The notes beneath the pieces are model-generated. The model was not told where the DNA came from. It saw nothing but the letters and a program-made list of their open reading frames with translations, and did not search any database. A program made the translations under genes and the position numbers. From Methylophaga thiooxydans DMS010 (GTDB lineage: Bacteria > Pseudomonadota > Gammaproteobacteria > Nitrosococcales > Methylophagaceae), in assembly GCF_000156355.1 (NCBI RefSeq), contig NZ_GG657899.1:361910-425909 (forward strand): a stretch of DNA of 64,000 nt, in the 5' to 3' direction. Below, piece after piece: positions 2,570 through 64,000 of the stretch (position 1 is its first letter; every line of letters begins with the position of its first letter).

Positions 2570-3301
2570 TTAATTTTCATATTGTTGTACCTGCTTTTGC
2601 ATCATTCCAGCTACCACAATACCGGCTTCATAGAGCAGCCACATCGGAATGGCGAGCATAAATTGTGAAATGATATCGGGTGGTGTGATGATGGCACCGA
2701 TGACGAACGCACCAACAATCACATAAGATCGTGCTTCACGCAGATCAGTGATGCTGACTATACCGGCAGTGACCATCAGTACAACAGCAACGGGTGTTTC
2801 GAAGGCGAGGCTGAACGCAATAAATAACCCAATGATGAAATCAAGGTATTTGCCAATATCGGTCATGACGGCAACACCATCAGGTGTCGTGCTGGTTATA
2901 AACCCAAAAACGACTGGAAAGACTAAAAAATACGCAAAGGCCATACCGCAAAGAAAGAGTATGACGCTGGTAATAACCAGCGGTGCAATGAGGTGTTTTT
3001 CATTGGAATACAGACCTGGCGCGATAAAAGCCCACAGCTGATAAAGCGTGTGTGGCGCAGAAATGATAAATGCGGCCAGCAAGACGACTTTCAGTGGGAC
3101 AAAGAATGGTGTGGTCACCTCGGTGGCAATCATCTGCCCACCTTCGGGTAACGACTGCATTAATGGCGTTGCCAGAAAAATATAGATGTCGTTAGCGAAT
3201 GGCATAAGTGCCAACATGACAACGACTAAGCCAGCAATGATTTTCAGCAGCCGGTTACGCAGCTCCAACAAGTGGGAGAAAAAAGTGTCTTTGGTGTTCA
3301 A
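2570..3301 (-). CDS. tatC: Sec-independent protein translocase TatC
   Basis: The 243-residue protein has six predicted membrane helices and the TatC hallmarks: an N-terminal HLLELRNRLL, LYQLWAFIAPGLY, and YLDFIIGLFIAFSLAFETPV. TatC recognises twin-arginine signal peptides. The start overlaps the tatB stop by four bases, so the two are translationally coupled. This is the last gene of tatABC, which lies next to the mau cluster whose MauA subunit carries a twin-arginine signal. Confidence 0.98.
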   Translation of the reverse strand: MNTKDTFFSHLLELRNRLLKIIAGLVVVMLALMPFANDIYIFLATPLMQSLPEGGQMIATEVTTPFFVPLKVVLLAAFIISAPHTLYQLWAFIAPGLYSNEKHLIAPLVITSVILFLCGMAFAYFLVFPVVFGFITSTTPDGVAVMTDIGKYLDFIIGLFIAFSLAFETPVAVVLMVTAGIVSITDLREARSYVIVGAFVIGAIITPPDIISQFMLAIPMWLLYEAGIVVAGMMQKQVQQYEN

Positions 3302-3696
3302 TCGACTGGTTTCCCTGTGCTTGGCTCAGTTACATCTGGATTAGTCGTAATGGATTCATCATGACTATCGGTTTGATCGGTTTGATCGGTTTGATCGGTT
3401 TGATCGGTTTGATCGGACTGAGGTGGCCGACGAATGACGTTCTCAACGGGCTGCATGCCGCGTCGCAATTCATCATTCAGGCCGCTATTATGTTGTTTTA
3501 ACTCGTCATGCAGCTTTTGTAGATCTTGGTTTTTCAGCTCATTGTCGATATCACTCTTTATGCTACTCATATAACGCTGCATGCGCCCCATGAGTACACC
3601 TGCTGTTTGAGCCAGCTTGGGGAGTTTGTCTGGCCCAATTACTATCAGTGCGATAACACCGATAACGATAAGTTCAGGGAAGGCAATATTGAACAT
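3298..3696 (-). CDS. tatB: Sec-independent protein translocase TatB
   Basis: The 132-residue protein starts MFNIAFPELIVIGVIALIVIGPDKLP, the usual single membrane helix and the GPDKLP hinge of TatB. An amphipathic helix follows. The C-terminal tail contains five or more Thr-Asp-Gln repeats encoded by a 9-base tandem repeat. TatB works with TatC as the twin-arginine substrate receptor. The repeat lies in the poorly conserved cytoplasmic tail, so length changes there should be tolerated. Confidence 0.97.
   Translation of the reverse strand: MFNIAFPELIVIGVIALIVIGPDKLPKLAQTAGVLMGRMQRYMSSIKSDIDNELKNQDLQKLHDELKQHNSGLNDELRRGMQPVENVIRRPPQSDQTDQTDQTDQTDQTDSHDESITTNPDVTEPSTGKPVD
3371..3415 (-). repeat. 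9-bp tandem repeat in tatB
   Basis: Five uninterrupted copies of GTTTGATCG (plus-strand reading) lie within tatB and encode a Thr-Asp-Gln run. A unit of nine bases keeps the frame, so slippage would change tail length without inactivating the gene. Confidence 0.95.
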
Positions 3697-3993: not shown

Positions 3994-5001
3994 TTATTGA
4001 CCGCGAGCGAGTTCTAAGGTCATGCTCGAGGATTCTCCAAATAGTTCTCGGTAATAGCGTGAGAAAAGGCTCATATGCCAAAAGCCCCATCGTGTGGCTA
4101 CATTCGCAATGCTGGTGACTTGTTTTGGCGAAAACTTCAGTTCTGCTCTAATTCTGTGTAAGCGAACATTTCTCATGTAAGCGACTGGTGTAATGCCTAG
4201 AACCTGTTTGAATGCGTGATTGAGGGTACGGCGACTGACATTGAGTGTTGTACAAAGGTCACCAATGGTCAGCACCTCGCAGTGACGTGATAACGTTATA
4301 TCTCGCACACAATTGACGATATACCGGTGAACACGGTGCTCGTTATGGCGGCTATGATTTTCGCTGGCAGCCATCAAAGCTTGTAAACAACTATCTAAGA
4401 CACTGTCTTCTACATGACGCCATACCTGATGGTGATCCATGCTGTCATTTAGGTTTTTTGAGAGATGTTCTGTGCCAATAAATAAGGCCGATAACAAACG
4501 ACTTTTTACGGCATGAGGAATGACTTCGACCGGATTTACTTTTTTCATCAGATCATTGATGTCTATCTGCTCAACGTTAGCGGCATAGTCTTCCAACCGT
4601 TGTTCAGATATCACTGCGGCAGTGATTTCTGAGGAGTGCGAGGTACGAAATAATAGTTCGGCATTCTTATCCAGCGTGATTAGCGTGTTTTTGCTTAGCT
4701 GGCCACCGCGCCATAATGATTTACCTTCAATAATGGTTGGCAAACCAATGACATAACTATCTTGTGGTGCGCTAGCGAGTTCATCAACAGAACGGTTCAT
4801 CGCTTCGCGAAACAGCTGTACACCTTTACTGGCAACACTGGTGACCATGCCGGAAAAGTGGCCTTTATCTAACTGGGTGTAGTCTTGTGACCAAAAAGGT
4901 AGTGTGATGGCGTGCTCCAGGACGTCTTCTGTTCGTTGACGCACAGTTGTTATTTCAACACTATCCTGCGGATGGTCAAACCATAATTTCTCATCTTTCA
5001 C
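3994..5001 (-). CDS. AraC-family transcriptional regulator divergent from mau
   Basis: The 335-residue protein has a C-terminal AraC-type double helix-turn-helix: LTIGDLCTTLNVSRRTLNHAF, then GITPVAYMRNVRLHRIRAEL and VATRWGFWHMSLFSRYYRELFGESS. The N-terminal two thirds resembles the EutR (ethanolamine) class of AraC regulators, which suggests an amine ligand. It starts with GTG at 5001 behind a GGGAGAGA ribosome site. It is divergent from mauF and is the obvious candidate activator; in Paracoccus this role is taken by the LysR-type MauR. A paralogue with the same start codon lies at 62652. Confidence 0.9.
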   Translation of the reverse strand: MKDEKLWFDHPQDSVEITTVRQRTEDVLEHAITLPFWSQDYTQLDKGHFSGMVTSVASKGVQLFREAMNRSVDELASAPQDSYVIGLPTIIEGKSLWRGGQLSKNTLITLDKNAELLFRTSHSSEITAAVISEQRLEDYAANVEQIDINDLMKKVNPVEVIPHAVKSRLLSALFIGTEHLSKNLNDSMDHHQVWRHVEDSVLDSCLQALMAASENHSRHNEHRVHRYIVNCVRDITLSRHCEVLTIGDLCTTLNVSRRTLNHAFKQVLGITPVAYMRNVRLHRIRAELKFSPKQVTSIANVATRWGFWHMSLFSRYYRELFGESSSMTLELARGQ

Positions 5002-5149: not shown

Positions 5150-5167
5150 ATAGTAGAAATCGGCAAC
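5150..5167 (-). promoter_or_regulatory. conserved element upstream of the AraC-type regulator
   Basis: The minus strand reads GTTGCCGATTTCTACTAT, ending 149 bases before the regulator start codon. The paralogous regulator has the same 18 bases with one mismatch 142 bases before its own start (62493-62510). Conservation of both sequence and spacing in otherwise diverged upstream DNA suggests an autoregulatory binding site. Confidence 0.55.
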
Positions 5168-5479: not shown

Positions 5480-5497
5480 AATAGCAAGAATCGGCAA
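5480..5497 (-). promoter_or_regulatory. second copy of the conserved element, before mauF
   Basis: The minus strand reads TTGCCGATTCTTGCTATT. Aligned to the element at 5150-5167, it shares TTGCCGATT, a T two positions on, and CTATT. Its AATCGGC core (5489-5495) lies 33 bases, about three helical turns, from another AATCGGC at 5456-5462. Such spacing suits an AraC-type activator bound upstream of the mauF promoter. This is pattern evidence only. Confidence 0.45.
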
Positions 5498-5628: not shown

Positions 5629-6489
5629 ATGAGTATAGAAGCCGATGCAGGTAGTTTCCGTCAACCATCACAGAATACCGAGCAAGCAACCTGTGTACCT
5701 GATGCTGTAAGTTTCTCGGAAACCACATCATCAAAAGGTCGCCTTGCGTTGATGTTATCAGCGATTATCGTGGGTGTCTCTGGTGGGGCGTTAATGAGCG
5801 CTCAGGGTGCAATGACAGCAAGCGCAATGACGTGGTTATTCATCATATTAACGTTTGTTGGGGGACTCCTCTCAACGTGGTCACCTTGTGGCTACTCAAG
5901 TTTAAGTCTGCTTAGACCTGCTGGTAAATATTCGCTGAAATCAGTGACTCGCTGGACACCTACCTTTATTACGCATGCAATCGGTTATGCCTTTGGCGCC
6001 CTGATTCTGGGTGGCGGTTTAGGTCTGGTCGGTGCATTTATGTTTGAACAACTGGCGTTCAGTCACATGGTCATTGGTCTGGCGTTGCTAGCGATGGGCT
6101 ATGGCGCACACCAATTCGGCTTTTTGAAAATGCCTTATCCACAACGTCGGGCACAGGTTCCTCACGACGCACGCCTGCGGTTCCGTTCGTCCACGATTGG
6201 CCTTTTGTATGGCTACGCGCTGGGCATGAACTATCTGACATATGTGCAGACACCGATTCTTTATATCGTGACCGGTGCTGCTTTGCTGAGTGCGGATGTC
6301 ACTACGGCCATCACGATCATCGCCATCTTCAACATCGGGCGTTGTCTGCCCGTTGCGGTGAATTTTTTGCCAATTACTAACCAGTCTGTTCAGGCCTGGC
6401 TGGCGAAATGGCAAGAGCGAGCAGTTGAACTGGATGGGTTCCTTCTGCTGTCAATCGGCGCAGCAGCATTAACCATGCTGACGCTGTAA
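5629..6489 (+). CDS. mauF: methylamine utilisation protein MauF
   Basis: The 286-residue membrane protein has several hydrophobic helices and a conserved WSPCGYSSLSLLRPAGKYS segment (residues 84-102) reminiscent of CcdA/DsbD-type proteins. MauF is needed with MauD and MauE for production of stable methylamine dehydrogenase; its exact activity is not established. It is the first gene of the cluster, with a strong AGGAGG ribosome site. A decayed copy of its 5' part lies at about 62105-62440. Confidence 0.95.
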   Translation: MSIEADAGSFRQPSQNTEQATCVPDAVSFSETTSSKGRLALMLSAIIVGVSGGALMSAQGAMTASAMTWLFIILTFVGGLLSTWSPCGYSSLSLLRPAGKYSLKSVTRWTPTFITHAIGYAFGALILGGGLGLVGAFMFEQLAFSHMVIGLALLAMGYGAHQFGFLKMPYPQRRAQVPHDARLRFRSSTIGLLYGYALGMNYLTYVQTPILYIVTGAALLSADVTTAITIIAIFNIGRCLPVAVNFLPITNQSVQAWLAKWQERAVELDGFLLLSIGAAALTMLTL

Positions 6490-6548
6490 ACATAAGCGAG
6501 ATACGAACCTTAACTCGTTATAAACCAAATAATAATTTTGGAGGAGAT

Positions 6549-7727
6549 ATGACTATTTTTAATCTTAAATCGAAGCTGAGGCAACAAGGCCTGGTAGGCG
6601 GGATTGCCGCAGCAGCATTAATGACAGCTGCTTATCCAGCATTAGCAGATATTGCCATCGAAGAAATGACGCTTGAAGTGGCGCCAGCAAGTGACTCAAA
6701 GCGTGTTTATGTCACCGACCCGGGCCATTTCCAGATGACCTCACAGGTCTTCACTATCGACGGTAACAACAACAAAATCCTGGGTATGTCTGATGCCGGT
6801 AAACTGCCTCATGTTTTGGTCGGTGATAAAGGTAACTTTATGGCCATTGCCAACACCTGGTATGACCGCATAGCTCGTGGTAACCGTGATGACTATATTG
6901 AGGTATTTGATACTCAGACGCATAAAGTGACTGCTGATATCGACATCCCTGAGGGTCGTTTTCTGACCGCTGTCTTTACCCATATGGCGACGTTGAGTAC
7001 CGACGACAAACATATGATGTTCCAACAGTTCTCACCCATACCGGCTGTCGGTCTGGTTGATCTGGAAGCGAACAAGTTCGTCAAAATGATGGATACACCG
7101 GACTGTTACCACCTGTTCCCTGCACCTGAACAGAACGTGTATATGCACTGCCGTGACGGTTCAATGCTGAAAATCAACTATGACGATGAGGGTAACGCTA
7201 CTCAGACTCATAGCAAAGTTTTCCATCCGGAAGACAGCTATCTGGTGAACGAACCTTATTACTCAGATGTGACTAACCGTCTGGCATGGCCAGACTATGA
7301 AGGCCGTATCTATCAGGCAAAACTGACTGCTGACGGTGCTGAGTTCATGGATCCTATCGATGTTTTCACTAAAGAAGAGAAAGCAGAAAAATGGCGTCCG
7401 GGTGGTTGGCAGTTAGTCACCATTCACAACGACAGTAATGAACTGTATTTGCTGGCTGACAAACGTGGCAAATGGACACACAAAACCCCAAGCCGTTATG
7501 TGTTTGTCGTTGACGCTAACACCGGTGAACGTTTGCGTAAGTTTGAGCTGAAGCACGAAATTGATTCGATTGCAGTGAGTCAGGATGACAAACCGTATCT
7601 GTTCGCTGTGTCAGCTAATGAACAAACGTTGTACACCTTTGATGCTAAGACAGGTAAGAAAATCGGTGAAACGGCAGGACTTGGCCGCTATCCGCACATT
7701 CTGACCCTGCCTCAGGATAGTGAGTAA
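6549..7727 (+). CDS. mauB: methylamine dehydrogenase heavy (alpha) chain
   Basis: The 392-residue preprotein has a signal peptide ending near PALAD and then a seven-bladed propeller of about 360 residues (KRVYVTDPGHF, KLPHVLVGDKGNF, DCYHLFP, GLGRYPHILTLP). It forms the structural subunit of the periplasmic alpha2-beta2 enzyme that oxidises methylamine to formaldehyde and ammonia. It follows mauF by 59 bases with a GGAGGAG ribosome site, and mauE starts three bases after its stop. The length is normal for the family. Confidence 0.98.
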   Translation: MTIFNLKSKLRQQGLVGGIAAAALMTAAYPALADIAIEEMTLEVAPASDSKRVYVTDPGHFQMTSQVFTIDGNNNKILGMSDAGKLPHVLVGDKGNFMAIANTWYDRIARGNRDDYIEVFDTQTHKVTADIDIPEGRFLTAVFTHMATLSTDDKHMMFQQFSPIPAVGLVDLEANKFVKMMDTPDCYHLFPAPEQNVYMHCRDGSMLKINYDDEGNATQTHSKVFHPEDSYLVNEPYYSDVTNRLAWPDYEGRIYQAKLTADGAEFMDPIDVFTKEEKAEKWRPGGWQLVTIHNDSNELYLLADKRGKWTHKTPSRYVFVVDANTGERLRKFELKHEIDSIAVSQDDKPYLFAVSANEQTLYTFDAKTGKKIGETAGLGRYPHILTLPQDSE

Positions 7728-7730
7728 GTC

Positions 7731-8279
7731 ATGAACTGGATTATTAACGATCCTGCCCTGTCAGTATTAGCCACACTTTTTGTGGGGCTGGTACTGGCGG
7801 TGGCAGCTATTTCCAAGCTGCGTAGCCTTGACGAGTTCCAGGGTGTTGTCGACAACTACCGTTTGCTGCCAGGTTTTTTGGTGGCTCCGGTAGCCAAGCT
7901 TTTGCCTTGGGTTGAACTGGCATGTGCTGCCGCATTGATGGTGCCGCCTGTTCGTGAAATGGCAGCCTGGGTAGCAGTAGGGCTGTTTGTGATGTTCGCG
8001 CTGGCATTGGCAATCAATGTTGGCAGAGGCCGAACTCACATCGACTGTGGTTGCGTGCGTCGTCCGACCAGCAAGAGCCGTATCGGCATGTTTCATGTCC
8101 TGCGTGCACTCTTTCTTGCCGGTGTCAGCACATTCATCGCTTTAAGTTCGCTGGAAATAGCCAGTGTTTCCCTCGCATCTTGGCTGATCGCTGTTGCTGC
8201 GGCATCAATGCTGGCCATGCTCTATGTAGCAGCTGATGTGATGGTGGGACTGCCAAACTCCCGCGAATCAAGAACCTAA
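7731..8279 (+). CDS. mauE: methylamine utilisation membrane protein MauE
   Basis: The 182-residue protein has about five membrane helices of the DoxX-like MauE fold. A CGC pair (Cys106 and Cys108) sits in HIDCGCVRR at a membrane edge, a plausible redox site. MauE partners MauD in forming the six disulphides of the small subunit. It is tightly packed between mauB and mauD. Confidence 0.95.
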
Positions 8280-8301
8280 TTTTTAGTAAGGAAAAATTAC
8301 A

Positions 8302-8934
8302 ATGAGTTTCGATATTCTTATTGCTTCAAATGTGCTGCTATGGGCCGCTTTTCTGGCGCTGGCAGCACTTATGGTCGGTGTAATCCGACAAATTGGTCTG
8401 CTCCATGAACGTTCAGCGCCACTGGGTGCGATGATGGTCGATCATGGTCCTGATATCGGTGATAAATCACCGGTGTTCAATGTTAAAACCTTCACCGATG
8501 AAAAAGATGTATTGGTTGGCCGCGCTATCACTGCTGGTCGCCCAAGCCTGTTGATGTTCACCGGTCCTTCTTGTCCTGTTTGTGCGAAGTTGCTACCGAT
8601 TATTCGTGATGTGGCGGCATCTGAAGGTGCTGATGTCATTTTGATTAGTGATGGTACAGCCGCAGAGCACCGTGAGTTCTTGAGCAACCACCCATTGAAA
8701 GGTGAGCTCTACATTAACTCGCCAGAAATTGGTATGCGCTATCAGGTTTCTAAAGTGCCTTACGGTGTTTTGCTTGATGCTGATGGTGTCATTAAAGGCA
8801 AAGGTCTGTGCAACACCCGTGAACACGTTGAAAGCCTGTTTGAAACGATTCGTCTTGGTCACGCTTCTCTGCAGAGCTATCTGAAAGACAGTTCTACTGC
8901 TAAGGAAGTGAAAGTAGCTGAACAACTGCACTAA
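8302..8934 (+). CDS. mauD: methylamine utilisation thioredoxin-like protein MauD
   Basis: The 210-residue protein has one N-terminal membrane anchor (about residues 8-30) and a periplasmic thioredoxin fold with the active site GPSCPVCAK (CPVC at 91-94), followed by a cis-proline segment KVPYGVLL. It is required for correct disulphide formation in MauA. It directly follows mauE with an AGGAAAAA ribosome site. Confidence 0.96.
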   Translation: MSFDILIASNVLLWAAFLALAALMVGVIRQIGLLHERSAPLGAMMVDHGPDIGDKSPVFNVKTFTDEKDVLVGRAITAGRPSLLMFTGPSCPVCAKLLPIIRDVAASEGADVILISDGTAAEHREFLSNHPLKGELYINSPEIGMRYQVSKVPYGVLLDADGVIKGKGLCNTREHVESLFETIRLGHASLQSYLKDSSTAKEVKVAEQLH

Positions 8935-8980
8935 TCATTAACGTGATATTAGACCTATAAAACTATAACGGAGAAGGCAA

Positions 8981-9547
8981 ATGAAAAAGAAATTAGGATT
9001 TGACGCAGCTATTGAAAAACTAAGCCGTCGCACGGCTAACAAAACCGGTCGTCGTGGTTTTGTTGGCAAACTAGGGGGCATCCTGGTCGGTGCAACCTTG
9101 TTGCCATTGCTTCCAGTTGACCGTCGTGGACGCCTGAAAGAAGCACATGCTGCGGATGCAAGTAACCTGGATCTGGCCAGAGAAGGCTGGGTACCACAGG
9201 ATCAGGATCCACAATCGTGTGACTACTGGCGTCACTGTTCTATCGACGGTAACGTCTGTGACTGCTGTGGTGGTACGCTAACGTCGTGCCCACCGGGAAC
9301 GAGTCTGTCACCAAGTTCTTGGGTGGCGAGCTGTTATAACCCGGGTGATCAGCAAACCTATCTGATCGCTTACCGTGACTGCTGTGGTAAACAAACCTGT
9401 GGTCAATGTGCGTGTCTGAACACAGAAGGTGAGTTGCCTGTTTATCGTCCAGAGTTCTCTAACGACATCGTATGGTGTTTCGGTGCAGAAAATGATGATA
9501 TGACTTATCACTGCACCATCTCACCAGTAGTTGGTAAAGCCAGCTAA
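8981..9547 (+). CDS. mauA: methylamine dehydrogenase light (beta) chain, TTQ-bearing
   Basis: The 188-residue preprotein has a long twin-arginine signal (TGRRGFVGKLG at 22-32) and cleavage near AHA-AD (residues 57-58). The cofactor tryptophans are Trp114 and Trp165, 51 apart as in Paracoccus Trp57/Trp108. The catalytic equivalents Asp89 (Asp32), Asp133 (Asp76) and Thr179 (Thr122) are all present. Fourteen cysteines follow the signal, where the Paracoccus chain has twelve; Cys96 and Cys140 are the extra ones and might form a seventh disulphide. Confidence 0.98.
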   Translation: MKKKLGFDAAIEKLSRRTANKTGRRGFVGKLGGILVGATLLPLLPVDRRGRLKEAHAADASNLDLAREGWVPQDQDPQSCDYWRHCSIDGNVCDCCGGTLTSCPPGTSLSPSSWVASCYNPGDQQTYLIAYRDCCGKQTCGQCACLNTEGELPVYRPEFSNDIVWCFGAENDDMTYHCTISPVVGKAS

Positions 9548-9571
9548 GTGGGACTGAGGCATTCATATATC

Positions 9572-10576
9572 ATGAAGATTAGAAGCCTTGTCATGTTGGC
9601 ATGCACGGTATTTTCCGTGCATGCCAGTTTGGCAGACGACACGATTAAGCGGAGTGACTATCAACGTCCCGAAGCCATTCCGGCTCCGGCATCGAATCCG
9701 CTGACTATAGAAAAAACAACGCTGGGGAAAGCCCTGTTTTTTGACCCGCGTTTGTCTCGAGAAAAAGGCATGTCTTGTGCGACCTGCCACTCACCGGATC
9801 ACCGCTGGAGCGATGGCCGGGTTGTGCCGCTGGGTTCTGAAGAACTCGAGCAGCCGAGACGATCGCCTACTGTCATGAACAGTGCCTGGCTTAAAGCATT
9901 AATGTGGGATGGCCGTGCCAACTCACTGGAAGCACAAGCGGTGCTTCCTATCACCACGCCGCATGAAATGAACTACAACATGAAAGAGTTGGTTCAGCGA
10001 CTGGGTGAAATCAAAGGTTATCAGCCTCTGTTTGAAGATGCATACGGCGATGCTGACATCACCACACAACGCATTGCGATGGCGCTTGCCACTTTTCAAC
10101 GCACGCTGGTGTCCAATATTTCAAGCTTCGACCGATGGGTGGATGGTGATGAACAGGCCATCAGTAGCAGTGCACAACGTGGTTTTGATGTGTTTAACGG
10201 TAAAGCACAGTGCGCTGCCTGTCATAAATCATGGCGTTTCACTGATGACAGCTTCCATGATATCGGTCTGGATAGCCCGGATCAGGGGCGTGGCAAAGTG
10301 ATACCGGTGGAGGTAACGATTATGCAGCATGCCTTTAAAACACCAACGTTACGTGATCTGCCTGAAAACGGTCCTTTTATGCATGATGGCTCAATGACCG
10401 ATCTGGAAGAAGTGGTTAAACACTATGAAGAGGGCGGCATTCAGCGTGCCAGCCTGTCAAAAGAGATGAAACCATTCGAGCTGACTGATCAGCAACGAGC
10501 GGATCTGATTGCCTTTCTCAAAACGCTGGATGGTGGCCCATTAGCCATTGAGCCACCTGTATTACCCAAGGAGTAG
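9572..10576 (+). CDS. mauG: di-haem enzyme MauG, TTQ maturase
   Basis: Starting at the ATG at 9572 gives 333 residues with a clean signal peptide ending near SLADD. A GTG at 9548, abutting the mauA stop, would add eight residues in front of the signal and is less likely. Two haem c motifs, CATCH (69-73) and CAACH (213-217), and PFMHDGS near 268-273 identify the MauG/cytochrome-c-peroxidase family. MauG completes tryptophan tryptophylquinone synthesis on pre-MADH in the periplasm. Confidence 0.96.
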
Positions 10577-10581
10577 CTGAC

Positions 10582-10944
10582 GTGAGTAGAGAATGGAAAC
10601 GTTGGTTGATGGGCATGACGCTCATCATCGCCACGCTCATTTCGACAGCAGGCAGTGCCGAGCAGGTGGGGGAGTCAGAGCCTGTGGTTCACAATTTGTC
10701 ACTGACCCACCACGATTTTGAAGACTGGACGTTTACCCCGAGGGTAAATGACACATTGGCTATCACGAACAAATCTGATGTTGCACACAGTATTTATATC
10801 ACTCATCCCGACGGTACGGTGGTGAATTTAGATGTGCAACTTCCGGGAGAAACCTTCACCTGGACTATTCCTGCAGCTGGTGATTATAGGCTGCAGTGCT
10901 GGATTCATCCGATCATCAGAGCTGAGATGACGGTTTCTCCCTAG
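10582..10944 (+). CDS. mauL: cupredoxin-like methylamine utilisation protein MauL
   Basis: The 120-residue product starts with GTG at 10582 behind AAGGAG, and has a signal peptide ending near GSAEQ. The mature part resembles a cupredoxin: a histidine in VAHSIYI and the block CWIHPIIRAEM, which could supply the Cys, His and Met ligands of a type 1 copper site. The position between mauG and mauM matches mauL in other methylotrophs. Its role in them is poorly defined, so electron transfer is only inferred. Confidence 0.85.
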   Translation: MSREWKRWLMGMTLIIATLISTAGSAEQVGESEPVVHNLSLTHHDFEDWTFTPRVNDTLAITNKSDVAHSIYITHPDGTVVNLDVQLPGETFTWTIPAAGDYRLQCWIHPIIRAEMTVSP

Positions 10945-10975
10945 CATCTAGCAGTGAGTCTGCGGGAGCGTGTGT

Positions 10976-11659
10976 ATGGCAGAAGATAAACAGCACAATA
11001 TTGGCAAGCTGGAAGACCCGGCAAAACGGGAAACTTTCCGCAATGTATTCAAGCGATTTGGCGTGGTACTGGTTGGTACCATCGTTGGCCAATCGATGAT
11101 TTTGTCACGACCATCACGCGCCGCAGAAGCGCTAAGACCGCCCGGTGCCTTGCCCGATCTGGACTTTGATTCGGCTTGCGTACGCTGCGGATTGTGTGTT
11201 GAAGACTGTCCTTACGACATTCTCAAACTCGCCAGCTGGGCTGATCCCGCGCCTCAGGGCACACCCTATTTTGTGGCAAGGGAAGAACCGTGCCGCATGT
11301 GTAAGGATATCCCCTGTGCAAAGGCCTGTCCTACCGGCGCACTTGATCGTCATATGACAGATATCAAAAAAGCCGATATGGGCGTTGCCGTTCTGGTCGA
11401 CCATGAAACCTGTCTCAATTACAAAGGTATGACCTGTAGCATTTGCTGGCGAGTTTGCCCGATTCGCGATGAAGCAATAACACTTGAGCCTATTCAGTCA
11501 GAAAAGGGTAGGTTGCTTATACCTACCGTTCACTCTGATACCTGCACAGGGTGCGGCACCTGTGAAAAACATTGCGTCTTGTCCGAAGCAGCTATTCGCG
11601 TATTACCACGTGAACTGGGCTTAGGCCTATCAGGCAGGAACTCAGTCGGAAGGAGTTAA
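10976..11659 (+). CDS. mauM: ferredoxin-type protein MauM
   Basis: The 227-residue protein is related to NapG and has four cysteine clusters: CVRCGLCVEDCP, CRMCKDIPCAKACP, CLNYKGMTCSICWRVCP and CTGCGTCEKHC, predicting up to four [4Fe-4S] centres. A hydrophobic N-terminal segment (GVVLVGTIVGQS) suggests export or anchoring, but there is no classical twin-arginine. The ATG at 10976 is chosen over the GTG at 10970 because the GGGAG site is then seven bases away. It pairs with MauN. Confidence 0.93.
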   Translation: MAEDKQHNIGKLEDPAKRETFRNVFKRFGVVLVGTIVGQSMILSRPSRAAEALRPPGALPDLDFDSACVRCGLCVEDCPYDILKLASWADPAPQGTPYFVAREEPCRMCKDIPCAKACPTGALDRHMTDIKKADMGVAVLVDHETCLNYKGMTCSICWRVCPIRDEAITLEPIQSEKGRLLIPTVHSDTCTGCGTCEKHCVLSEAAIRVLPRELGLGLSGRNSVGRS

Positions 11660-11661
11660 GT

Positions 11662-12504
11662 ATGCTGCGTTTAGGTCGAGGCCTTTATCGGCATCGTTGG
11701 TTGTTGACTCGCCGGACGGTTCAAATTGTCATTCTTTTAGCCTTTATTGTGGCAATCCCCGGCTATGGCAAGATTGCAGAAGGTAATTTGGCTTCAAGTC
11801 TGTGGTTCGGTGAGCTGAAACTGACCGATCCCTTCATTCTGTTGCAGACGTTTTTTGCAGGCTCTACGATTGCGTTGCCAGCTTTAATCGGAGCCCTTAT
11901 TGTCGGCGGCTTTTATGCTTTTTTAGCCGGACGACTCTATTGCAGCTGGGTGTGTCCGATCAACCTGATCACCGATTTAGCCTACTGGTTACGCAAGCGC
12001 TTACATATAAAAGGCAATATGAGTTTATCGCGGAGCCTGCGTTATTGGGTGTTGGCTTTAGCCTTAGCACTATCGTTTCTTGGCGGTACGCTGGCATGGG
12101 AGATGATTAATCCCATCACGCGATTCCAGCGTGAATTGGTGTGGTTTTCCTTTAGTGGCGCTATGTTACTCGGTGCCTTATTTCTGTTTGATTTATTGGT
12201 CAGTCGCCGCGCCTGGTGCGGACATTTATGTCCGGTAGGGGCGTTCTATGGTCTATTAGGACGCTATGGACGGCTCAAAGTCACGGCGACACCTACCGAA
12301 AGCTGCGATACCGTTGGTTGTTCTCGTTGCGTCACTGTTTGTCCTGAGCCACATGTACTGGCACCGGTTGTCTCCAAACAGGCGCAATCCGTTACTTCGG
12401 GCGATTGTACCCGTTGTGGTGCCTGCCTGGATGAGTGTCATGAAGGCACGCTGTCGATGAAGCTGGATTTAGTGGGAATGGTGACTCGAAAGGCCGGGAA
12501 GTAG
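11662..12504 (+). CDS. mauN: membrane ferredoxin-type protein MauN
   Basis: The 280-residue NapH-like protein has about four or five membrane helices with cytoplasmic motifs CSWVCP and CGHLCP, then two ferredoxin clusters (GCSRCVTVCPEP and CTRCGACLDECHEG). With MauM it probably passes electrons across the membrane; in other methylotrophs these genes are not strictly essential. It starts two bases after mauM with GGAGTT ahead. A degenerate copy of its 3' end lies about 115 bases further on. Confidence 0.94.
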   Translation: MLRLGRGLYRHRWLLTRRTVQIVILLAFIVAIPGYGKIAEGNLASSLWFGELKLTDPFILLQTFFAGSTIALPALIGALIVGGFYAFLAGRLYCSWVCPINLITDLAYWLRKRLHIKGNMSLSRSLRYWVLALALALSFLGGTLAWEMINPITRFQRELVWFSFSGAMLLGALFLFDLLVSRRAWCGHLCPVGAFYGLLGRYGRLKVTATPTESCDTVGCSRCVTVCPEPHVLAPVVSKQAQSVTSGDCTRCGACLDECHEGTLSMKLDLVGMVTRKAGK

Positions 12505-61959: not shown

Positions 61960-62033
61960 GGCTGAGTGGCAGAGTGGTCATGCAGCGGACTGCAACTCCG
62001 TTAACGCCGGTTCGATTCCGACCTCAGCCTCCA
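61960..62033 (+). tRNA. tRNA-Cys (anticodon GCA)
   Basis: The 74-base cloverleaf has the acceptor stem GGCTGAG/CTCAGCC, anticodon GCA in GACTGCAAC, the T loop TTCGATTCC and an encoded CCA. Duplicated mau-linked DNA begins about 70 bases after its 3' end. Confidence 0.97.
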
Positions 62034-62104: not shown

Positions 62105-62440
62105 CAGTTTTGTTTCTTACACCCAGAAAGATGGCGTGAGTCATTAAGGTAGACGTCCAGCATGGAGTTGGACCCAAAGAATATTTACCTACTGGTCTCA
62201 ATAGGCTTAGGCTGGAATAACCTCACGCTGAGCAGATAGAAAATAAGCCACCATGAAACATCAAAACCACTAGTCAATGTAGCCGACATTTATGTATTTA
62301 ACAGGATGGCTGCTGTGATTCCGACCGCAATTGCCGATAAAACAATGGTGATTTGTGCATAGCATGATTTTGACTCAGAAAAACTGATGGCATCTAGCCC
62401 GCGACCGCTCTGCTCTCGACGATGTATGCCTGATTATAAT
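62105..62440 (-). pseudogene. mauF relic (truncated, frameshifted)
   Basis: On the minus strand, starting at about 62394, the translation reads DAISFSESKS, then IVLSAIAVGI, a stop, and more weakly similar membrane-like residues. After a shift it reads SLSLLRPVGKYSL, then WTSTLMTHAI. These align in order with MauF residues about 25-118 (DAVSFSETTS, LSAIIVGV, SLSLLRPAGKYSL, WTPTFITHAI). The beginning is poorly conserved and the last 165 residues are absent. It is divergent from the second AraC-type regulator, copying the arrangement at 4.0-6.5 kb. Confidence 0.85.
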
Positions 62441-62492
62441 TGCAAAAGTCTATATGCGCTCCCACTAAAGAAAATCTACTACCCATACATGT

Positions 62493-62510
62493 GTTGCCGA
62501 TTTTTACTAT
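62493..62510 (+). promoter_or_regulatory. conserved element upstream of the second AraC-type regulator
   Basis: GTTGCCGATTTTTACTAT matches the element before the first regulator (5150-5167, minus strand) at 17 of 18 positions and lies at a similar distance from the GTG start (142 versus 149 bases). Confidence 0.55.
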
Positions 62511-62651
62511 GGCTATCGAAGACAAGGCTTATTATGGTAGTAATCCAGACTGTCGGTCTGTTAAAAATAATAAGACAGAAATATCGGGTCTTTTCTAATA
62601 AAAACAATAAACTCCGATCAAATGCACAGTCTGGTTGTGAAGGAGAGAGGC

Positions 62652-63656
62652 GTGAATAAAGAAAAGATATGGTTAGATAACGGCCCAGATAAATTAGAAA
62701 TAAAAGCAGTATGCTCTAAGTTACCAGATGTGCTAGAGCAGGCGGCGGCATTGCCTATGTGGTCTCAGGATTACACTCAATTGGATAAGGGTGAATTTTC
62801 AGGCACAGTGACCAGTGTTGCTTCTCAGGACATGCAGGTTTTTCGCGAAGCCATGAATCGTTCTGTGGATGAACTCGCCAGCGCTCCACCTAATAGTTAT
62901 GTCATTGGTTTACCAACCATCGTTGAGGGTGATGCCTTATGGTGTGGCAGCAAGTTAACTAAAAACTCGTTGTTCTGCTTGGATAAAAATGAGGAACTTT
63001 TATTTAAGACTTCTCATTCATCAGAAATCACCGCAGCCGTTATTTCTGAACAACGACTTGAAGAATATGCTGAAAGAGTTGAAAAGGTAGATCTTCGTCC
63101 TCTTATGAGCAAGGTAAATCCCGTAGAAAAGCTACCACCCGATATACAAAGCCGCCTTATGGCAACTTTGTACATTGGCACTGAACACTTGGCTAAAAAT
63201 ATCGAAGAGGGTGTCAGCCACCCAAACAGTTGGCGCCACTTTGAAGACAATGTATTTAGTATTTGCATGCAAGCGCTGACCGCGGCAAGCAACAATAATA
63301 GTCGACATCATGAAAACCGGGTTCATCGTTATATCGTTAAAAGTGTGCGTGAGATGACGCTCACACAACATTGTGATCCCATTACTATTGGCGAGATTTG
63401 CACCGCACTGAATATTAGTCGCCGGACATTGAACCATGCGTTTCAGCAAGTGCTTGGTATCACCCCGGTTGCCTATATGCGTAATATTCGCTTGCACAAA
63501 ATCAGAGCCGAACTTCAATACAAGTCTAAGCAGCTAAATAGTATTGCCTGTGTCGCCTCACATTGGGGCTTCTGGCATATGAGCTTGTTCGCCCGTTATT
63601 ACCGAGAGCTATTCGGTGAAACCCCGAGCGAAACTCTTGCACGGTCACACCACTGA
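62652..63656 (+). CDS. second AraC-family (EutR-like) regulator, paralogue of the mau-linked one
   Basis: Starting at GTG 62652, after AAGGAGAGAG, gives 334 residues aligning end to end with the regulator at 3994-5001. Examples are FREAMNRSVDELASAP, TSHSSEITAAVISEQRLE, ISRRTLNHAFQQVLGITPVAYMRN and SHWGFWHMSLFARYYRELFGE. Both start with GTG and share an upstream element. With its mauF decayed, it could control the main mau cluster in trans, respond to another amine, or be on its way to loss. The reading frame is fully intact. Confidence 0.9.
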   Translation: MNKEKIWLDNGPDKLEIKAVCSKLPDVLEQAAALPMWSQDYTQLDKGEFSGTVTSVASQDMQVFREAMNRSVDELASAPPNSYVIGLPTIVEGDALWCGSKLTKNSLFCLDKNEELLFKTSHSSEITAAVISEQRLEEYAERVEKVDLRPLMSKVNPVEKLPPDIQSRLMATLYIGTEHLAKNIEEGVSHPNSWRHFEDNVFSICMQALTAASNNNSRHHENRVHRYIVKSVREMTLTQHCDPITIGEICTALNISRRTLNHAFQQVLGITPVAYMRNIRLHKIRAELQYKSKQLNSIACVASHWGFWHMSLFARYYRELFGETPSETLARSHH

Positions 63657-63892
63657 AACTTCGCTCAGATGACCATATCAGATGTCCAGTCTTTTACATC
63701 AAATCAATGAGACGCATTAATGGGGTTATGTGGCACTGATTTGTTGCTCAGGTGGTGGTTTCCGTCCAAAAACGACGTAAGCTAGGCGGCGCAGTAGAGG
63801 CTTCAAACACGTCATGAATGAAGAACAGTCAAGGAGCGACAATTGAACATGCTGATGCTGACCACCTTTATCATTTCATCACCCTATATGCT

Positions 63893-64000
63893 TTACCAGA
63901 GCTGACTTTCATCGCTGCCGACCAGTATGCCGATTAGCGCCACTATGTTGTTCTCTTGGTTATCACCAGTGTTTTGCTGTGCCTCTACGGGATAGTCTTT
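63893..64000 (-). CDS. possible 3' end of a gene entering from the right (partial)
   Basis: The minus strand is open for 35 codons from the window edge (ending IVALIGILVGSDESQLW) to a TAA at 63893-63895. The stretch is too short to assign. The remaining bases from 63657 to 63892 show no recognisable gene. Confidence 0.25.
   Translation of the reverse strand, partial: KDYPVEAQQNTGDNQENNIVALIGILVGSDESQLW

Follow-up and report, generated by a model that had tools for sequence, protein, structure and literature searches.

Probable remains of a horizontally acquired methylamine oxidation module behind tRNA-Cys in Methylophaga thiooxydans, with a retained AraC-type regulator and chemoreceptor gene

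The stretch of DNA analyzed here (the window) comprises 64,000 nucleotides of contig NZ_GG657899.1 of Methylophaga thiooxydans DMS010 (positions 361,910 to 425,909 of the forward strand; genome G000). It contains two pairs of a regulator gene and a divergent mauF sequence, separated by about 57 kb and oppositely oriented, in agreement with the initial annotation (Table 1). One pair belongs to an intact mau locus (copy 1), and the other lies behind tRNA-Cys. The regulators of the two loci, Reg1 and Reg2, are 66-67% identical at the protein level, and the best equivalog model for both was EutR, far below its cut-off. Reg2 is full length and intact, again as described initially. Its GTG start lines up with the ATG of its orthologue in G003, a MAG of M. 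aminisulfidivorans, and its C-terminal double HTH was recognized as HTH_18 (PF12833, E 3e-23).

Rightward from tRNA-Cys, 100 bp without any match are followed by a mauF ruin, about 180 bp of regulator upstream region, and Reg2. The second copy had been placed about 70 bases from the 3' end of tRNA-Cys; the aligned part of mauF begins 100 bases after it. The locus runs beyond the mauF-regulator pair, since a broken tatA, a tatC fragment, a spacer, an MCP gene, and a near-copy of the tRNA-Cys 3' end lie to the right of Reg2. According to the results of tblastn, residues 72-118 of the copy 1 protein (MauF1) matched the second locus at 59-62% identity, and residues 25-57 matched it in another frame (E 6.6e-16). 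The match had an E value of 3.7e-11 when the whole genome was searched, which ruled out chance similarity, and a blastn comparison of the G003 locus with the mauF stretch gave an E value of 2e-49. These searches confirmed the second, broken mauF opposite the regulator that the initial annotation had read from blocks within residues 25-118. The mauF ruin is damaged by in-frame stops, one frameshift, and a deletion of 8-9 nt, and the tatA ruin is damaged by an early stop, indels, and a frameshift. Only remnants of tatABC, the tatA ruin and the tatC fragment, are left 3' of the regulator, with tatB and both ends of tatC deleted. Nothing of the mauFBEDAG-amicyanin-MN structural genes except mauF codons 1-113 was found at this locus by searches of the locus and of its own genome. 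Because the structural mau genes are missing, the locus was classed as a relic rather than a working module. The only long open reading frames of known families between its boundaries are Reg2 and the MCP gene.

Table 1. Features of the relic locus and of the intact mau locus (positions in the window unless stated otherwise)
Feature	Position	Strand	Evidence or remark
tRNA-Cys (gca)	61960-62033	+	ARAGORN; presumed integration site
mauF ruin, about codons 1-113	62134-62465	-	tblastn E 6.6e-16; blastn to G003 72% nt, E 2e-49
Operator-like box TTGCCGATTTTTACTA	62494-62509	+	158 bp upstream of Reg2 start
Reg2, intact AraC-family regulator, 334 aa	62652-63656	+	GTG start, RBS AAGGAGAG; HTH_18 E 3e-23
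tatA ruin	63718-63852	+	alignment to G003
tatC internal fragment	63853-63993	+	tblastn E 8e-7 (TatC1 alone); 82% nt to G003
Start of spacer leading to MCP gene	63994-64000	+	
Intact MCP gene, 701 aa	G000:C9:426169-428274 (L007:3170-5275), equivalent to 64260-66365		outside window; co-directional with Reg2
tRNA-Cys 3' repeat	G000:C9:428530-428564, equivalent to 66621-66655		outside window; E 5e-8 and 8e-10
tatC, copy 1	2570-3301	-	TIGR00945
tatB, copy 1	3298-3696	-	TIGR01410
tatA, copy 1, 70 aa	3721-3933	-	translation; absent from the initial annotation
Reg1, copy 1 regulator	3994-5001	-	
Box TTGCCGATTTCTACTA upstream of Reg1	5151-5166	-	
Box TTGCCGATTCTTGCTA upstream of mauF1	5482-5497	-	
mauFBEDAG-amicyanin-mauMN, copy 1	5629-12504	+	intact, mosaic

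The locus was compared with the mau modules of other Methylophaga genomes. In this genus, tatC-tatB-tatA-regulator lie on one strand and mauF-B-E-D-A-G-amicyanin-M-N on the other, followed by azurin. The whole arrangement MCP-tatCBA-regulator-mauFBEDAG-amicyanin-MN-azurin was intact in six genomes (G003, G005 on contig C39, G004, G007, G008, and G022), with the G003 module known up to mauD, in which its contig stops. In all six, the gene beyond tatC is an orthologue of the MCP gene of the relic. This MCP, with a PDC/dCache-like sensor, a HAMP domain, and signalling domains, is a regular neighbor of tatC in these modules, and it may be a methylamine chemoreceptor. In the loci of G005a, G020, G017, G018, and G011, the regulator is kept and no MCP is present. 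DNA alignment showed that the relic is a collinear skeleton of the G003 module across mauF-Reg-tatA-tatC-MCP, with at least four large deletions. They remove the stretch from about mauF codon 114 through azurin (including mauB-mauN), about 410 bp of the mauF promoter, 653 bp spanning tatA/tatB/tatC, and 560 bp spanning tatC and the spacer. In G020, tRNA-Cys is followed after about 200 bp by azurin and intact mauN-F in the same orientation as in the relic, and the regulator, tatB, and tatC carry on in the same order on a second contig. The G020 cluster represents a more distant mau lineage, and its use of the tRNA-Cys site may be independent of that of the relic. The collinear whole modules in relatives, together with the G020 cluster behind tRNA-Cys, identify the relic as a whole mau module and not a duplicated regulator-mauF pair. 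The idea of a second, lost mau locus raised by the initial annotation is thus well supported, and the second locus very probably represents what is left of another set of methylamine oxidation genes, acquired horizontally and located next to a tRNA gene.

The distal repeat outside the window, which corresponds to the last ~33 nt of tRNA-Cys, is identical to this 3' end at 33 of 35 positions over 35 bp and lies 4.6 kb from tRNA-Cys. A tyrosine integrase gene was found directly behind tRNA-Cys in at least seven relatives (G001, G003, G004, G005, G012, G014, and G019), and distal tRNA-Cys 3' repeats occur 20-36 kb away in G012, G014, and G019. The tRNA-Cys gene, previously suspected to be an integration target, has repeatedly served as an integrase site within the genus. 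Inside the relic, no PF00589 match was found near C9:424000-428500 of G000. An empty site joining both flanks was found in none of the relatives compared, and none of them shares the right flank; within 34 kb to the right of the distal repeat, neither the native tRNA terminator nor an empty site was found. The distal repeat is a candidate, not a proven, boundary for the right edge of the relic. The 100 bp behind tRNA-Cys matched the integrase-bearing islands of relatives no better than shuffled sequences did. Extra tRNA-Gly and tRNA-Cys copies are present right at the site of the relic in L071 (G013) and L075 (G023). Further mau modules have tRNA genes close by, either a tRNA-Arg/tRNA-Pro pair or tRNA-Arg ccg (at the azurin end in L029 and L034 and at the MCP end in L031-L033), which suggests several integration sites.

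The origin of the relic was examined with trees and synonymous divergence. Reg2 shares 93% amino acid identity with the mau regulator of G003, and the tree places it with the G003 and G005b regulators (support 100/99) inside the main Methylophaga mau clade. Reg1 lies outside the whole mau clade, and the Mfd tree places this genome inside. The pS value to G003 was 0.36 for Reg2, 0.32 for MCP, and 0.29 for MauB of copy 1, against a saturated 0.75 for the housekeeping protein Mfd. Since the values for Reg2, MCP, and MauB are far below that of Mfd, the exchange of these genes between lineages took place much later than the separation of the species. The relic module moved between species, and Reg1 belongs to an older, separate lineage. 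The intact locus has a mosaic structure of its own: the part reaching from tatC to about mauF codon 80 (2570 to ~5870) stands apart from all relatives, and the sequence from ~6080 is G003-like, with the switch within mauF (~5870-6080). Reg1 shows 64-68% nucleotide identity to its relatives, and no source of this divergent half was found. A search of 369 genomes of the class yielded nothing closer to Reg1; its best match outside the genus among them was 31%. The mauB gene on contig C15 of G005 (L030) is likewise an outlier, at about 72-79% nucleotide identity, although the rest of its module is typical, which again points to recombination of mau clusters gene by gene.

These data bear on two other accounts of how the second locus arose. 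Because the gene order is mirrored and the genes are homologous, the Reg1-mauF control unit could have been duplicated within the genome, with later decay of the second mauF, and the initial annotation had spoken of a duplicated unit. A homologous second unit does exist, but it reaches to tatABC and MCP, the latter lacking from copy 1, and neither the tree nor the pS to G003 fits duplicates made within the genome. Synonymous sites between Reg1 and Reg2 are saturated (0.75), against 0.36 between Reg2 and G003, and Reg1 stands outside the clade that holds Reg2. Abnormally fast evolution of Reg1 and the control half of copy 1 is countered by equal distances to outgroups. Internal duplication was therefore rejected on the trees and synonymous divergence and is hardly credible. 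A 57-kb inversion between the mirror-image copies was also rejected as a simple model, as copy 1 is syntenic with G005 C15 at both outer flanks and towards the tRNA. A different account is compatible with transfer and not opposed to it: a G003-type module would have recombined with the resident one and given it the 3' part of mauF up to mauE/D, and its control half would be the relic. The switch of copy 1 from outlier to G003-like within mauF, the {G000,G003} split at 99.5/100 for 6080-8270, and the similarity of the MauB pS to those of Reg2 and MCP argue for such a split of one module. However, several of mauA-N are at a pS of only 0.32-0.56 from other relatives, which points to wide mau recombination and a possible independent donor, and the comparison with G003 ends where its contig stops in mauD. 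This split origin is a serious possibility, with the balance tipped slightly against it; that the incoming module passed on structural genes by recombination and left its control half at tRNA-Cys is plausible but unproven.

The best overall explanation, which we hold with high confidence, remains a decayed G003-type mobile mau module at tRNA-Cys from which MCP and Reg2 were retained. A complete module (azurin, mauN-mauF, regulator, tatABC, and MCP) would have come from a close relative of G003 and inserted behind tRNA-Cys, with a tRNA 3' repeat left on the far side. The two modules would then have been redundant, and deletions would have taken the second set of enzyme and export genes. The lost genes (mau and tatABC) are those that copy 1 duplicates, and the kept MCP gene has no copy 1 counterpart. 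The nearest other match of this MCP in the genome was 29%, in the signalling half only, and no second copy of its sensor half was found in the genome. The absence of an MCP from copy 1 would explain why this one was kept, and Reg2 would have been kept as a working regulator.

Whether retention reflects selection was judged from substitutions. The dN/dS ratio of Reg2 versus G003 was 0.067, and 25 synonymous and 8 nonsynonymous changes were found on the branch of Reg2, where about 72% nonsynonymous changes are expected without selection (P 1e-8). The initial suggestion that the regulator is kept under selection was borne out, the selection being purifying for Reg2 and also for the MCP gene (52:31, P 2e-11). 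Differences to G003 by codon position were 27:21:38 in the mauF ruin versus 19:6:81 in Reg2. The branch of the mauF ruin (0.33) has the length that a fully neutral history from the G003 split onward would give, and the decay of mauF was nearly neutral. Pseudogenization in bacteria is piecemeal, so Reg2 might merely not yet be lost after a recent decay, with no selection acting on it. However, the ruin branch spans the whole neutral divergence since G003, and the frame of Reg2 is still open, which occurred in at most 1% of runs when neutral drift was simulated at branch lengths of 0.15-0.25. We consider that explanation very improbable. The neutral-length branch of the mauF ruin, together with the constraint on Reg2, indicates that Reg2 most likely stayed under selection once its operon had died.

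The promoter regions offer a candidate for what Reg2 does. The genome has exactly three sites that match the box TTGCCGATTNNTRCTA without mismatch, one each upstream of Reg1, mauF1, and Reg2. Each of the mau loci compared has this box, with 0-1 mismatch, about 125-139 bp upstream of mauF and, in a second copy, about 155-185 bp upstream of the regulator; in the relic, the box on the regulator side was kept and that on the mauF side was deleted. No box was found before MCP or the tat genes. Over the DNA-binding half, Reg1 and Reg2 are 69% identical, so that about 30% of positions differ. Judged from the sequences, Reg2 would bind the candidate box before its own gene, giving autoregulation and possibly driving the co-directional MCP gene. 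It would also bind the two boxes of identical type in the intact Reg1/mauF1 promoter region, and the live mau operon would have two AraC-type regulators. The simplest reading is that Reg2 may be an autoregulated AraC-type activator whose other candidate sites all lie in the promoter region of the live mau operon. That Reg2 exerts cross-control on the intact mau locus appears to be an evenly balanced proposition, autoregulation or MCP expression alone would be a lesser possibility, and retention of Reg2 for another reason is unlikely. A narrower version would have Reg2 and MCP kept for chemotaxis only, Reg2 driving or being co-transcribed with MCP and copy 1 being untouched. Both genes are intact, co-directional, and selected, the MCP sensor is single copy, and no terminator-like site was found on the + strand between them. 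However, MCP has no box in front of it, the regulator occurs without MCP in five other loci, and the two remaining boxes of the genome lie at copy 1, so we regard a purely chemotactic role as doubtful. A further proposal, somewhat less likely than not, is that a horizontally acquired regulator outlived its operon and was kept by selection because it shares, by way of an identical operator, in the control of the resident mau operon run by a much older xenologous regulator.

Parts of this organization have known counterparts. MauR of Paracoccus is a LysR-type activator of mau. Its gene is a divergent regulator adjoining mauF, as are Reg1 and Reg2, whereas the latter belong to the AraC family. 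Decayed islands at tRNA 3' ends resemble the relic in having an intact tRNA at one end, a partial 3' repeat at the other, and integrases at the same tRNA in relatives; unlike them, the relic holds no integrase, and its right flank matches no relative. For Methylophilaceae, an AraC-type regulator and tatABC are reported as the only conserved neighbors of mau, and MADH gene islands as possibly highly mobile (PMC4109929). The same neighbors are found here, but in Methylophaga the gap between regulator and mauF carries two boxes, MCP is a further neighbor, and one of the two islands has decayed to a relic that retains its regulator. In Methylobacterium, mau was transferred repeatedly, and its discordant phylogeny and lack of synteny among close relatives (PMC5023228) are shared with the present case; that work describes no relics, retained regulators, or tRNA sites, and its main text contains no word starting with "regulat" or "island". 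A literature search for an AraC regulator of mauF returned only unrelated matches. The mau arrangement and its mobility are already known. What the present analysis adds is the dissection of a relic whose regulator was retained under selection, together with a candidate operator and the inclusion of MCP in the Methylophaga module. One genome shows the stepwise decay of a mobile catabolic island in which redundant parts were lost and a chemoreceptor and a regulator were kept. If the proposed co-regulation is true, two regulators would share just three operator sites genome-wide, making this a minimal natural two-regulator circuit that arose from gene transfer. The case also yields a short candidate operator and, for the use of methylamine by a common marine methylotroph, a two-regulator circuit that can be tested.
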